Source: Pseudomonas viridiflava
GTDB lineage: Bacteria; Pseudomonadota; Gammaproteobacteria; Pseudomonadales; Pseudomonadaceae
DNA length: 64,000 nucleotides
Direction of reading: 5' to 3'
Assembly: GCF_003702045.1 (NCBI RefSeq)
Contig: NZ_RBTP01000003.1
Span: forward strand, 1 to 64,000
Shown here: piece after piece, positions 9,868-14,554 of the stretch
Layout of the letters: every line of letters begins with the position of its first letter
Position numbering within the stretch: the first letter of the stretch is position 1
The notes under the pieces: model-generated
The model's input: the letters and a program-made list of their open reading frames with translations, nothing else
Databases searched by the model: none
What the model was told of the DNA's origin: nothing
Translations under genes and position numbers: made by a program

Positions 9868-10095
9868 TCAATTTTTCGATCCCGTGCCTTGGGCCAGGCT
9901 GTACATCAGGAGCAGCAGGTCGTGATCGGGCTTCACTGCCGCCTCACTTTTCGCCACACGGGGCAAAGGGCAATGCCCTTCACCATGCTGGGCACTAAGA
10001 ATCTTGGTGCCCGGTTGTTCAAGCGCTGCCATAGCGACTGTTGCCGTCGCCAGCGCCGCAAACACGAACAAACCTCTAGCCATTTCGAGCTTCAT
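9868..10095 (-). CDS. Small exported protein, third gene of ColR-type operon
   Basis: 75 residues with a signal peptide (GLFVFAALATATVAMA) and a short mature part containing one cysteine (GEGHCPLP). The ATG overlaps the stop of the inaA-like gene by 4 bp (ATGA), so translation is probably coupled. Its position matches PA4377 and the last gene of the P. putida PP0903-PP0905 operon, reported as part of the ColR regulon. Probably periplasmic and connected with envelope maintenance; biochemical role unknown. Confidence 0.8.
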   Translation of the reverse strand: MKLEMARGLFVFAALATATVAMAALEQPGTKILSAQHGEGHCPLPRVAKSEAAVKPDHDLLLLMYSLAQGTGSKN

Positions 10096-10811
10096 GACTC
10101 TAAACCTTTGATAGAGCTGCCAAACGCCGCTTGATAAAAGTAGACCAATTTCTGCCAGTCTGCGGGGCTGAATGACGAATGGCGTTTTAGCTGCTTCATG
10201 TCATGTTGCGCAGCACCGTAAGCCGTCCAGCGGCGACGGCCCTTTTCGAGATCAAGCAGCGCGACTTCGGCCTTGGCGCTGGCACCCTCGCCCGTGACCC
10301 GGACAAAAATGTGCTTGCTATAGAGGCAACTGTGTTGCCAGCGCCCCAAATGCATGCGCGCCAGCGTTGTGCCCATTTCGCTGAGCATCTGCTCGTACAA
10401 CAGCTCGCCGTAACGTTCGCGTCCGCCGCTGGCGACCCACTTGTCGAACTCTTCGAACCCCTCCAGGGCAACGGTCACCAGCAGTGCCCGCCACTCATTC
10501 TCGGTGCGTTCAGCCCCACAGAACACGATCTTCGGCACCGGCACACCGATTTTGCTCAGGCCTTCAAGGGCGTCACGCTCGCGCAGGACCGTGGGGCGTC
10601 CGAGCGGGTGCAACCAACTGCGGTAAATATGACCCGTCTGACGTTTGCTATAGAGCGTTTGCCCATCCTCGGTAAAAACCCTTTGCACGCCACTTTCGCC
10701 GCCACGACGCACGTTCGGCTCTTCAACCCACTCGCCGCGTTGGCTCCAAAAATGGCTGAATCCGTGTTTTCCCGGATTCACAACTGGTTCTTTCAAGGAC
10801 TGCAAACCCAT
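10092..10811 (-). CDS. inaA: InaA-family lipopolysaccharide kinase-like protein
   Basis: 239 residues with a kinase-like fold: a nucleotide-binding start (RVFTEDGQTLYSKRQTGH), a helix region, a catalytic-type motif HLGRWQHSCLYSKHIFV and the late aspartate in VALLDLEKGRRR. These are the hallmarks of the InaA/WaaP/RdoA group that phosphorylates lipopolysaccharide core sugars. It is not the ice-nucleation gene of the same name. It lies 4 bp after the methyltransferase gene and overlaps the small exported protein. The operon has a ColR-like box upstream, which supports a role in outer-membrane upkeep. Confidence 0.85.
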   Translation of the reverse strand: MGLQSLKEPVVNPGKHGFSHFWSQRGEWVEEPNVRRGGESGVQRVFTEDGQTLYSKRQTGHIYRSWLHPLGRPTVLRERDALEGLSKIGVPVPKIVFCGAERTENEWRALLVTVALEGFEEFDKWVASGGRERYGELLYEQMLSEMGTTLARMHLGRWQHSCLYSKHIFVRVTGEGASAKAEVALLDLEKGRRRWTAYGAAQHDMKQLKRHSSFSPADWQKLVYFYQAAFGSSIKGLES

Positions 10812-10815
10812 CTAC

Positions 10816-11496
10816 TCACCTTTTACGTAATACATAGACTCGCCACATGGCGTACATCGGCAGGAAATCCATTCGCTTTTGAATGCGAAAACCTGCCTCT
10901 TCAAATTCTGCTTCTGCAGTCGCTACCGGTAACACAAAACGATTCTGGTAACTTTCCTGCCCATTTTCCTGATGGCGCTGGCGCTCAAGCTTTCGGCGCT
11001 TCCAGGCTTTGAAGTTGCCATCCACCCACAACGAGATAATCACACTGTCACGGGTGACACGCTGAAACTCACGCAATAGAGCCATACGATCACTGGCTTG
11101 ACCGACATGGTGCAGCAGGCGCATGCAGAAGATGCTGTCGACGGCATTGTCGGAAAGATTGATCGCAAAGGCAGATGTCTGCAAGGGTTGTACCCGTTTC
11201 ACGACATCGGCCGGTTGAGACTCGCATGCAATCCGCAGCATGTCGGCGGAGTTGTCCGCGCCAATGATCGAACGGTTCGGTTTTTCGGCCAACAGCGGCC
11301 AGAAGCGACCCGCCCCGCACGGCAGATCCAACACAAGTCCCGGGTCTCCGACCATGTGCAAAGCCTTTCGTGCCAACTGTTCATCACGGTGGTGAGACAG
11401 TTTGCGCCAGAGACCGTCCTGATGCTTTTCGAGGTACTGGCGGGCATGGTCTTTGTCGTACTTACGGGAAAACTCGAGTTCTATGCGGTCGCTCAT
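10816..11496 (-). CDS. SAM-dependent class I methyltransferase (WarA-like)
   Basis: 226 residues from the ATG at 11496, which has AGGAG eight bases upstream; ten extra N-terminal codons are possible but lack a site. The glycine-rich SAM motif LDLPCGAGRFWPLLAE lies near residue 70, followed by the acidic GADNS and the later motif DSIFCMRLLHHV. It begins an operon with the InaA-like kinase and a small exported protein. In P. putida the matching gene is in the ColR regulon, and a ColR-like box lies 68 bp upstream here. The substrate is unknown; a lipopolysaccharide or envelope role is inferred. Confidence 0.86.
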   Translation of the reverse strand: MSDRIELEFSRKYDKDHARQYLEKHQDGLWRKLSHHRDEQLARKALHMVGDPGLVLDLPCGAGRFWPLLAEKPNRSIIGADNSADMLRIACESQPADVVKRVQPLQTSAFAINLSDNAVDSIFCMRLLHHVGQASDRMALLREFQRVTRDSVIISLWVDGNFKAWKRRKLERQRHQENGQESYQNRFVLPVATAEAEFEEAGFRIQKRMDFLPMYAMWRVYVLRKR

Positions 11497-11681: not shown

Positions 11682-12971
11682 TCAAGGCTTGGGAACGTTC
11701 AGCGCGACCTTGAACCGGCAACCGTGAGGCTCCATCGGCGTCAGGCTCACGCTCCACCCCTGATTGGCGCAGATGCGCTGAACCAGCGACAGGCCCAGGC
11801 CCAAACCCTCGCCCCTCTGCTCGTTGCCGCGCACGAAGGGTTCGAACATGGCCTCGCGTTTTTCTTCAGGAATACCGACGCCGCTGTCTTCAACGACAAA
11901 GCTTTCAGCCTGCAGCGTCAGCGTGATGAAACCATGATCGGTGTAGTGCAGCGCATTGCGCAGCAGGTTGCCCATCACCGCGTGCAGGAACGTGGCGTTG
12001 TAGCGAATCTCGGAAACCTGCCCGTCCGGCGGCGGGTTGTACGTCAGCTTGAGCCCTTTGCCCTCGATAGGGTCACGCCATTGCGAGATGAGCTGTTCAG
12101 CAACGCCCACCAATGTCGCCTTGGGTGTCATGGCCGGGTCTTCGCGCTGGGTACGGGCGAGCATGAGGAACGTCTGCACCAGGTCTCGCATCTCCTCACA
12201 GGCGCGCCCGATGCGCTCTACCTGCCGGCGTGCGCGCTGGTCGAGCGCCGGATTTTCGAGCAATAGCTCACAGGAACTGGCCAACACCATCAACGGTGTG
12301 CGCAGCTCATGGCTGACATCACTGGTGAACATCCGCTCGCGAATCAACGCCTGCCGCAAACGGCCCAGCGTGGCATCGAAGGCCACTGCCAGCTCACCCA
12401 CTTCGTCAGCGGCATAGTCAGGTGCCAAAGGGGGGGCAAGGCCCAATAGCTGATCCCGGTGGCGAACCTGTCTGGCCAGACGTACAACCGGCGCCATCAC
12501 GCGGCGAGCCAATACCCAGCCCAGAAACACTGCCAGCGCCAGCGCCATCACGAACCCGACCAGCACCACGGCAAACAACACCCGCTCGCGCTCTTCGAAA
12601 TCGCTCTGATCCTGCAGCAGCGCGTAGTGTCGACCGTCGACCACTTCAATCATGGCGTGGTAAGACAACGGCCCGCGAAACACCTCATGGAAGCCCGGCT
12701 CCAGATGCCGCAGGTCCTTGGGCAGATCGAAATCGCCAGGGCCATTGGTAAAGTAGAACAGCTGGTCAGGTTTGGGTCGGTGGCTCCAGTCGCTCACGCT
12801 GTCCATGAGCATGAGGCGATTGAGGTCACCCCCCAGGCCCGCAGAGATCAGTTTTTCTTCAACCAGGTGGACGGTGGAAATGATGCCGATTGCAAAGGAT
12901 CCGGCGACCAGCGCACTCATCAGTGCAAACGCAATGATGATCCGCTGGGCAAGGCTCTGTTTAAACTCCAT
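11682..12971 (-). CDS. colS: ColS sensor histidine kinase
   Basis: 429 residues from the ATG at 12971, which overlaps the end of colR by 11 bp. Two membrane segments (IIIAFALMSALVAGSFAIGI near the start and VLFAVVLVGFVMALALAVFL) enclose a periplasmic region of about 110 residues. A HAMP-type linker follows, then the phosphorylated-histidine box FTSDVSHELRTPLMVLAS and an ATPase domain with N box (NLLRNALHYTDHG) and GLGLGLSLV. It pairs with ColR next door. ColS is reported to respond to excess zinc and iron and to guard membrane function in pseudomonads; the input here is inferred. Confidence 0.92.
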   Translation of the reverse strand: MEFKQSLAQRIIIAFALMSALVAGSFAIGIISTVHLVEEKLISAGLGGDLNRLMLMDSVSDWSHRPKPDQLFYFTNGPGDFDLPKDLRHLEPGFHEVFRGPLSYHAMIEVVDGRHYALLQDQSDFEERERVLFAVVLVGFVMALALAVFLGWVLARRVMAPVVRLARQVRHRDQLLGLAPPLAPDYAADEVGELAVAFDATLGRLRQALIRERMFTSDVSHELRTPLMVLASSCELLLENPALDQRARRQVERIGRACEEMRDLVQTFLMLARTQREDPAMTPKATLVGVAEQLISQWRDPIEGKGLKLTYNPPPDGQVSEIRYNATFLHAVMGNLLRNALHYTDHGFITLTLQAESFVVEDSGVGIPEEKREAMFEPFVRGNEQRGEGLGLGLSLVQRICANQGWSVSLTPMEPHGCRFKVALNVPKP

Positions 12972-13644
12972 CCCGGCCCTCGGCCAAGCGGTAGCCCACA
13001 CCATGCACGGTTTGCAGCAACGGCTTGGAAAACGGTTTGTCGATCACTTGACGCAATTGGTGCACATGGCTGCGCAGGCTGTCGCTGTCAGGGCAGTCAT
13101 CGCCCCACAGCGCTTCTTCGAGAATTTCACGGCGTAACACATGCGGGCTCTTCTGCATCAGTACGGCAAGCAGCTTGAGGCCGACCGGGTTGAGTTTGAG
13201 CATGCGTCCTTCACGCGTCACTTCCAGGGTGTCCAGGTCGTAGATGAGATCGGACACCTGCAGCGTACGACGCCCTCCGCCCTGAGCGCGACGCAACACC
13301 GCCTCGATACGCGCCGCCAATTCAGACAGGGCGAATGGCTTGAGCAGGTAGTCATCGGCGCCCGAGCGGAAACCCTGCAAGCGGTCGTCCAGTTGGTCGC
13401 GGGCGGTCAGCATGATCACCGGCGTGTCGCGCCGAGCGTCTTCGCGCAGGCGTTTGCACAAGGTATAACCATCGATGCCGGGCAACATGATATCCAGCAC
13501 GATCAGGTCGTAATGCTCGGTGGCAGCCAGATGCAGTCCTGAGAGGCCATCCTGTGCGCAATCGACGGTATAGCCTTTCATGCCCAGGTAGTCGGCCATG
13601 TTTGCCAGGATATCGCGGTTGTCTTCAACCAGAAGAATTCGCAT
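12961..13644 (-). CDS. colR: ColR response regulator (OmpR family)
   Basis: 227 residues: a receiver domain with phospho-acceptor Asp51 (LIVLDIMLPGIDGY) and the conserved lysine in DDYLLKPF, then a winged-helix DNA-binding domain with PHVLRREILEEALWGDD and SLRSHVHQLRQVID. It is the partner of ColS, translated from the same transcript. Two sites resembling the ColR consensus lie in this window, one upstream of the divergent PAP2 gene and one upstream of the methyltransferase-inaA operon. Confidence 0.93.
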   Translation of the reverse strand: MRILLVEDNRDILANMADYLGMKGYTVDCAQDGLSGLHLAATEHYDLIVLDIMLPGIDGYTLCKRLREDARRDTPVIMLTARDQLDDRLQGFRSGADDYLLKPFALSELAARIEAVLRRAQGGGRRTLQVSDLIYDLDTLEVTREGRMLKLNPVGLKLLAVLMQKSPHVLRREILEEALWGDDCPDSDSLRSHVHQLRQVIDKPFSKPLLQTVHGVGYRLAEGRDGV

Positions 13645-13718
13645 GGAGCACTCTCATATGCAGTTTGGGCTGGCGCAGCTTAAGACGAAGTGGGCGTGAG
13701 GGCCAGCGCCGAGATGGA

Positions 13719-13741
13719 CTAACGATTTTTTCATCTATAAT
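13719..13741 (+). promoter_or_regulatory. Putative ColR box with overlapping promoter for the PAP2 gene
   Basis: Bases 13719-13734 read CTAACGATTTTTTCAT, matching 15 of 16 positions of the recalled ColR consensus. One base later a perfect -10 box TATAAT occupies 13736-13741. The box therefore covers the -35 position, as expected for an activator that replaces the -35 element. Transcription would start near 13748, about 75 bp before the PAP2 start codon. Confidence 0.68.
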
Positions 13742-13822
13742 TCACAATCCACATGACACACTCCGAAACAATTTGCCGTGCGTTCAAGACTGCGGCCTAT
13801 GTTCCCTCGATCTGGATTTGCC

Positions 13823-14554
13823 ATGTTGAAAGACGCATCCCCTCCTCATTCCCGCCCGCTCAACTTCTGGATATGCCTGGGCTTGCCTGCCCTCACCGCG
13901 CTGATACTGGTCCTGCTGGAACTGACCCCGGTGGACATGGACATTGCCAAGCTGGCCTTCGATCCCGCAAGCGGCGCGTTCATCGGCAGACACAGCTACT
14001 TCCTGGAGGATGTGCTTCACGATCGCGCCAAGCAGGTGGTGATGGTCATTGGGGTCGTGGCGATGATCAGCTTCGCAGCCTCGTTCAAGGTCGAGCGCCT
14101 GATACCCTGGCGTCGAGAACTGGGGTGTCTGGTGCTGTCGATGGCCCTCGCCACCGGTTTCGTGACACCGCTCAAAGTGGCGACCTCCGTGCAGTGCCCG
14201 TGGAGCCTGACCGAGTTTGGCGGAAAGGAAACCTACAGCGAACTGCTCAGTCCGCGCCCGGCCACAGACAAGCCCGGCCGTTGCTGGCCTGGCGGTCATG
14301 CCGCAACCGGCTTTACCCTGTTCGCGCTGTTCTTCATGTTCCGCGACCGCAAACCAAAGCTGGCCAAAGCCGGGCTGATAGCGGCGTTCAGTCTGGGAAC
14401 GATCTTTTCCATAGGACGCATGCTTCAGGGTGCACACTTTCTGTCGCACAACCTCTGGACGGCGGTGTTCTGCTGGTTGATTTGTCTGGGGGTTTATTAC
14501 TTCATTCTGTACAGGCCTGAGCGCCGCGAAGCGGCAGTCCAGCTCTCGCGCTGA
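13823..14554 (+). CDS. PAP2 family membrane phosphatase
   Basis: 243 residues from the ATG at 13823 (MLKDASPPHSRP); a GTG at 13778 would add 15 residues. Several membrane segments are visible (FWICLGLPALTALILVLLEL, VVMVIGVVAMISFAASF and later ones). The phosphatase motifs are present: GRCWPGGHAATGF and the final SIGRMLQGAHFLSHNLWTAV, giving the two catalytic histidines. Members remove phosphate from lipids such as undecaprenyl pyrophosphate or modify lipid A. The gene is divergent from colR with a ColR-like box at its promoter, so it is a probable ColR target. Confidence 0.87.
   Translation: MLKDASPPHSRPLNFWICLGLPALTALILVLLELTPVDMDIAKLAFDPASGAFIGRHSYFLEDVLHDRAKQVVMVIGVVAMISFAASFKVERLIPWRRELGCLVLSMALATGFVTPLKVATSVQCPWSLTEFGGKETYSELLSPRPATDKPGRCWPGGHAATGFTLFALFFMFRDRKPKLAKAGLIAAFSLGTIFSIGRMLQGAHFLSHNLWTAVFCWLICLGVYYFILYRPERREAAVQLSR

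Follow-up and report, generated by a model that had tools for sequence, protein, structure and literature searches.

ColR operators described in Pseudomonas

The closest described relative of the site presented here is the operator between PP0900 and colR (PP0901) of Pseudomonas putida, where Kivistik et al. reported in 2009 a ColR footprint and activation of PP0900 by this regulator, with no clear effect on colR itself in the accessible part of that paper (PMC2689224). The published ColR core is a 16-bp motif, (T/C)(T/C)NA(C/G)NN(T/C)TTTTT(C/G)AC, described there as two direct repeats, and the same text mentions, without data, extra and less conserved ColR boxes at PP0900/0901 and at two other promoters, and predicts a ColR box at the colR/PP0900 region of P. 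fluorescens (PMC2689224). Further targets in P. putida, again from the accessible text of PMC2689224, are the methyltransferase gene PP0903, activated by ColR, and PP1636 (dgkA), activated and gel-shifted, not footprinted; the orthologues of dgkA and PagL both figure there as ColR targets. In this line, later work from 2014 showed that zinc induces PP0900 and that both colR and colS are required, that ColS senses metal through an ExxE motif, that the promoter of the PP0900/colR region reading towards colR shows no metal response, and that disruption of PP0900 alone leaves the zinc and iron MIC unchanged (PMC4074579, portions accessible). The accessible sections of a third article make no mention of PAP2 (PMC8876380), and, as for the spacing of ColR arrays, the titles of the open-licence literature on ColR sites or ColRS offered nothing beyond PMC2689224. 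The ColR regulon governs metal tolerance and envelope modification.

Here we examine a window of 64,000 nucleotides of Pseudomonas viridiflava (contig NZ_RBTP01000003.1, positions 1 to 64,000). The link between ColR and PAP2 was already established in P. putida, and the window therefore mainly extends it to another species: we find a known ColR target whose predicted operator is conserved and longer than the published core. Our own basis is sequence, conservation and spacing in relatives, whereas binding and activation are those of the P. putida orthologue.

The colR-PAP2 locus

On the minus strand of the window we find the genes of an inaA-like kinase, a methyltransferase, colS and colR, followed on the plus strand by PAP2 and then by groEL/groES (Table 1), the same arrangement as described for PP0900-PP0904 of P. 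putida in the accessible text of PMC2689224. Both the ColR box and a TATAAT hexamer lie between the divergent starts of colR and PAP2. The ColR protein of the window is identical at 227 of 227 positions to that of another P. viridiflava locus (L001), and at 219 of 227 (93 of 100 in the DNA-binding part) to the ColR of L052, a locus with a PAP2 promoter almost the same as the printed PP0900 sequence. ColS retains the periplasmic FEERE motif, to which metal sensing is ascribed in PMC4074579. ColR and ColS are thus both present with their DNA-binding and sensing parts conserved, as expected for a direct ColR target. The closest named relatives of the PAP2 protein, at 90%, belong to P. viridiflava and P. 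alliivorans, a comparison from which very near records may be missing. The inaA-like kinase scored 174.7 bits with the NCBIfam model InaA, under its cut-off of 235.

Table 1. Genes and predicted regulatory elements of the colR-PAP2 region in the window
Feature	Coordinates	Strand	Remarks
inaA-like lipopolysaccharide kinase gene	10092..10811	-	Pfam Kdo, 197.2 bits
Methyltransferase gene, PP0903-like	10816..11496	-	Methyltransf_25; start set at ATG 11496, AGGAG upstream
Second predicted ColR promoter, before methyltransferase/inaA	11525..11579	-	Same layout in relatives
Second promoter, -10 TAATTT	11530-11525	-	
Second promoter, degenerate half-site ACGAC	11546-11542	-	
Second promoter, half-site	11557-11553	-	
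Second promoter, box	11579-11564	-	
colS sensor kinase gene	11682..13004	-	HAMP, HisKA, HATPase_c
colR response regulator gene	12961..13644	-	Response_reg and Trans_reg_C; divergent from PAP2, start at 13644
Predicted ColR box CTAACGATTTTTTCAT	13719-13734	+	15/16 versus published core
ColR half-site 1, CTAAC	13719..13723	+	
ColR half-site 2 with T-tract, TTCAT	13730..13734	+	TTCAC in nearly all relatives
TATAAT	13736..13741	+	Within the 6 bases separating half-site 2 from half-site 3
ColR half-site 3, TTCAC	13741..13745	+	11 bp after half-site 2; outside published 16-bp core
Possible ColR half-site 4, ATGAC	13753..13757	+	Weak; 12 bp after half-site 3
Candidate ColR-dependent -10 region AACAATTT	13767..13774	+	Weak, shifted by about 1 base
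-10 candidate AACAAT	13767-13772	+	At +33, not exactly +34
-10 candidate CAATTT	13769-13774	+	At +35, not exactly +34
PAP2 superfamily phosphatase gene	13823..14554	+	PP0900 orthologue by synteny; ATG at 13823; Pfam PF01569, 77.1 bits (cut-off 27.2)
groEL/groES			Beyond PAP2; named from sequence

A conserved row of half-sites before PAP2

The orthologous region was compared in 110 loci, 80 named and 30 from sampled genomes (one being the window itself), with some species present twice. Eleven loci were dropped, seven without a recognisable colR and four with a best box at 3 mismatches, leaving 99. A ColR box with at most 2 mismatches was present in 99 of the 103 loci with a recognisable colR, versus 2 of 103 when the other strand of that stretch was read, and among the 99 the mismatches numbered 0 in 42 loci, 1 in 48 and 2 in 9. 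The site before the orthologous gene is therefore conserved, as a direct ColR target would lead one to expect. In a non-redundant set of 61 rows (<80% identical), the conserved columns were those of the box, a TTCAC at +7 to +11 relative to the core, an A at +21 and, from +34 to +39, a hexamer resembling a -10.

The first-pass annotation had reported a 15 of 16 match to the ColR consensus at this place, which we confirm; the single mismatch is the last base, a T where all 7 footprinted sites of P. putida and 58 of the 61 rows have C. Box positions b12 to b15 were identical in 61/61. The proposal that PAP2 is a direct target of ColR is also well supported, the orthologue PP0900 having a footprint, a colR effect and a zinc response. 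Motif statistics were rejected as evidence for the box, one-mismatch boxes being no commoner than matches to the reversed pattern (162 versus 219 in the window genome); within the window, 4 matches with at most 1 mismatch to the core were found versus 1.67 expected, and 6 of 100 shuffles also reached 4. The box is judged real because of its position and conservation, not because of motif statistics.

A closer view of the alignment points to a row of direct half-sites longer than the core. Strict nTnAC motifs occur 11 bp apart at b1, b12 and +7 (half-sites 1 to 3) in 89%, 95% and 95% of the 61 rows, and at the other offsets from -44 to +69 no position exceeded 15%. By column, the TTCAC of half-site 3 was kept in 60, 58, 53, 60 and 60 of 61 rows, with the strict motif in 58 (it is absent from L003, L012 and L077). 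The columns of half-site 4 keep the A at +21 in 53/61 rows and the C at +22 in 39/61, the strict motif before PAP2 occurring in 4/61 rows at +18 and 6/61 at +19, and the copy in the window lies one base further downstream than is usual in the genus. An array of four half-sites for PAP2 was dropped on the count of 4/61, versus 12/30 before the methyltransferase gene.

The same spacing is found around the published footprinted sites of P. putida. In all 7, whether activated or repressed, the core is preceded (5 sites) or followed (2 sites) by a further YYNAS at a distance of exactly 11 bp, with 0 or 1 of 7 at any other distance from 5 to 17; none of 20000 shuffles of the flanks reached 7 (maximum 4), for a pattern that was picked after viewing the sites. 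The PP0900/colR operator shares with the window the gene pair, the position between divergent genes and the core, and the third TTCAC can be read in its printed 50-base sequence as well (PMC2689224, accessible text). The window departs from that operator in a core that ends in T and not C, in the TATAAT within the gap, and in a half-site 4 and a -10 region shifted by about 1 base.

As the site is placed between divergent genes, it might be thought to serve the autoregulation of colR and not PAP2. We consider this very improbable, since the array points to PAP2, with the conserved -10 on the same strand, and the colR direction in P. putida did not respond to metal, nor clearly to ColR, in the accessible texts (PMC2689224, PMC4074579); on these published data, colR autoregulation was rejected.

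A separate observation concerns three P. cichorii/capsici-type loci (L012, L015 and L193), which keep the core before PAP2 but have no half-site 3, nor a clear -10 where one is usually found; the box there may therefore work differently or not at all.

The TATAAT within the array

A perfect TATAAT does begin one base after the box, as the first-pass annotation stated. Its further claim that the box covers the -35 position of this hexamer is wrong: with a 17-base spacer the -35 would be GATGGA at 13713-13718, immediately before the box, whose centre would then fall near -21, within the spacer. No sigma-70-type promoter was found by a consensus scan of 13400-14100. An exact TATAAT at this place occurs in 1 of the 99 loci, the window's own, and columns +2 to +6 under it carry 0.03-0.40 bits in the 61 rows, too little for a conserved -10; the last T owes its conservation to half-site 3, which starts with it.

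These data bear on the earlier reading of box and hexamer as a fused direct-activation architecture, in which ColR on 13719-13734 would activate from the TATAAT one base downstream. The two elements adjoin as described, but the hexamer lies in the gap between two half-sites and has no -35 partner, ColR would occupy the -35/-10 spacer, and the exact hexamer is found in the window only. Moreover, the -10 of the other ColR promoters (methyltransferase and dgkA) starts at +12, +23 or +34 relative to the box, as against +2 for TATAAT. We regard such a mode of activation as improbable. The column conservation, together with the spacing in other promoters, led us to reject TATAAT as a conserved -10; it is probably incidental to ColR activation and not the -10 that ColR works with.

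The downstream -10 region and the P. syringae lineage

The usual -10 of the PAP2 promoters is located about 33 bp downstream of the TATAAT site: an nAnAnT occupies +34 to +39 in 49/61 rows, and the A, A and T at its places 2, 4 and 6 are found singly in 55, 55 and 57 of the 61. The window is among the 12 rows without it, and the candidates that it offers (Table 1) are weak, AACAAT having a hexamer score of 4.2 versus 10.6 for TATAAT. A start near 13780 would centre the published core near -54 and put half-site 3 near -39 to -35, which is the usual place for an activator of the OmpR/PhoB type.

Altogether, the site probably serves the PP0900-type PAP2 gene as its conserved ColR operator, with the array feeding the downstream -10. 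Phosphorylated ColR would bind head-to-tail on the row of nTnAC motifs, one every 11 bp, over 13719-13745 and perhaps as far as 13757, so that the published 16-bp core would represent the first two half-sites only. The promoter-proximal half-sites would stand near the -35 region of the weak -10 at 13767-13774, where ColR may recruit RNA polymerase and so replace a good -35. ColS would sense an excess of zinc or iron, and PAP2 would thus be switched on; the TATAAT, lying between two half-sites, would be covered once ColR is bound. The start site, the oligomer state, the hexamer used in the window and the PAP2 substrate are what we infer in this model. Against it stand the last base of the core, off consensus, the weakness of the downstream -10, the rarity of a strict half-site 4, the P. 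cichorii/capsici-type loci described above, and the P. syringae relatives considered next.

A different reading takes the TATAAT as a second or relocated promoter of the P. syringae lineage, either independent of ColR or blocked by it, with the box in its spacer. TATnAT occupies this position in 10 of 15 distinct P. syringae/viridiflava-type promoters, and most P. syringae relatives combine it with a downstream -10 that has lost its final T. TATnAT is found in 8 of the 9 promoters with a low downstream -10 (best score <=0.3) versus 2 of the 6 that keep it (L006 and the window), an association of about 0.05, one-sided and calculated by hand, that ignores relatedness and for which both the group and the cut-off were set after looking. 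The far higher score of TATAAT in the window points the same way, and the C just before it would presumably suit the stationary-phase sigma factor too. On the other hand, the genus shows no conservation in columns +2 to +6, the -35 partner is missing, and the nearest relatives of the window have CAGAAT and TAGAAT at this place. TATnAT is absent from six further distinct rows (the P. cichorii/capsici-type L012, L015, L016 and L193, together with L017 and L075), and L012, L015 and L193 have no clear downstream -10 either. Related genomes may, in addition, count as few events, and the TATnAT pattern of the lineage could reflect one or a few ancestral ones. A relocated or second promoter is thus possible, on the unlikely side.

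More specifically, the PAP2 promoter of the P. syringae lineage might be moving, with the ancestral -10 fed by ColR in decay, a new TATnAT arising about 33 bp upstream inside the array, and the window genome, which carries both elements, as an intermediate, which is a tentative picture that we hold to be unlikely. If true, a promoter moved in this way would turn a zinc-activated gene into one that is basally expressed and either repressed by ColR or only modulated by it.

Other ColR promoters and the spacing of the -10

The preferred reading of an array feeding a downstream -10 can be compared with other ColR promoters. The counterpart of the PP0903 operator lies inside the window, before the methyltransferase and inaA genes (Table 1), and has half-sites every 11 bp and, in most rows, the same -10 offset as PAP2; it differs in its -10, which is a TAnnnT (TAATTT in the window) versus the usual nAnAnT of PAP2. 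This promoter was located by its distance from colR in 66 loci (38 were incomplete and 7 had no colR), with the first core position relaxed and 18 rows with at least 2 mismatches left out; five of those 18 (L056, L066, L072, L074 and L079) showed no recognisable array in the stretch searched. In the 30 non-redundant rows, nTnAC was present at +7 in 30 and at +18 in 12, and TAnnnT was found at +34 in 24 and 11 bp closer, at +23, in 6. These six (L021, L022, L026, L027, L035 and L067) offer a natural test of helical phasing.

For dgkA, named from sequence, 30 loci were taken from 40 genomes, all 40 with a match; one missing start and one box with 2 mismatches reduced them to 28, of which 17 were non-redundant. 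These promoters have two half-sites, and their -10 TAnnnT occupies +12 to +17 in 17/17. With dgkA at +12, the methyltransferase gene at +23 or +34 and PAP2 at +34, the -10 therefore steps by 11 bp from the core. A TAnnnT at +34 occurs in 0 of the 61 PAP2 rows, and PAP2 therefore shares with the methyltransferase promoter the offset, not the hexamer; on the same count, a strict rule nTnAC-N11-TAnnnT for all three promoters was dropped.

Such a spacing, with rows of at least three half-sites every 11 bp in most of the promoters examined and a -10 at +12, +23 or +34, may be new for ColR. As a proposal, requiring an array with a phased -10 might sharpen the prediction of the ColR regulon. Within the OmpR/PhoB family, PhoB-type tandem-repeat sites are likewise made of direct repeats every 11 bp before a weak promoter; the sequence of their repeat differs from that of the ColR array.

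Elsewhere in the window genome, other likely ColR sites are a perfect core, TTCACGCTTTTTTGAC, before a dgkA-like gene and, close to a PagL-like gene, a core with one mismatch (L114 and L130, position 1500, minus strand), where the gene names are those that we take from the sequences. Further perfect cores, CTAACAATTTTTTCAC and CTGACGATTTTTTCAC, occur in AT-rich, intergenic-looking DNA (L113 and L116, position 1500).

The PAP2 protein and variants of the locus

A match to PAP2 was obtained in 233 of 298 sampled Pseudomonas genomes. Compared with the textbook motifs of the PAP2 family, the protein of the window carries a Cys where the first motif has Arg and a His where the third has Asp. The motifs of this type, Kx6CPW, PGGHA and GRx5HF(F/L)SH, are common to 68 of 80 PAP2 relatives, the other 12 falling outside the search pattern. 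As these motifs depart from the textbook ones, no substrate should be assumed. The earlier statement that the enzyme acts on envelope lipids holds as a fair reading of the PAP2 family, whereas the substrate itself is one that we only infer. The protein scored 81.6 bits with the NCBIfam lipid A phosphatase model NF028538, whose equivalog cut-off is 275, and reached none of the thresholds that NCBIfam sets for lipid A phosphatases. The single PDB match, 7rdr (E 4.7e-8 over 50 residues of a repeat protein), was judged uninformative.

Some variation is found in the layout of the locus. In 11 of the 76 named loci where colR was found, the distance between colR and PAP2 is 2.1-2.3 kb, and the two loci of this kind that were opened (L029:2468-4417 and L077:2502-4496) have a gene for a sulfatase-fold protein as the first below the ColR array and PAP2 as the second. 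The relatives that the L029 protein has in the window genome are all distant (~30%). Both sulfatase-fold proteins carry Pfam Sulfatase and resemble lipoteichoic acid synthases, and the nearest solved chains of the one from L029 are 3lxq and LTA synthases.
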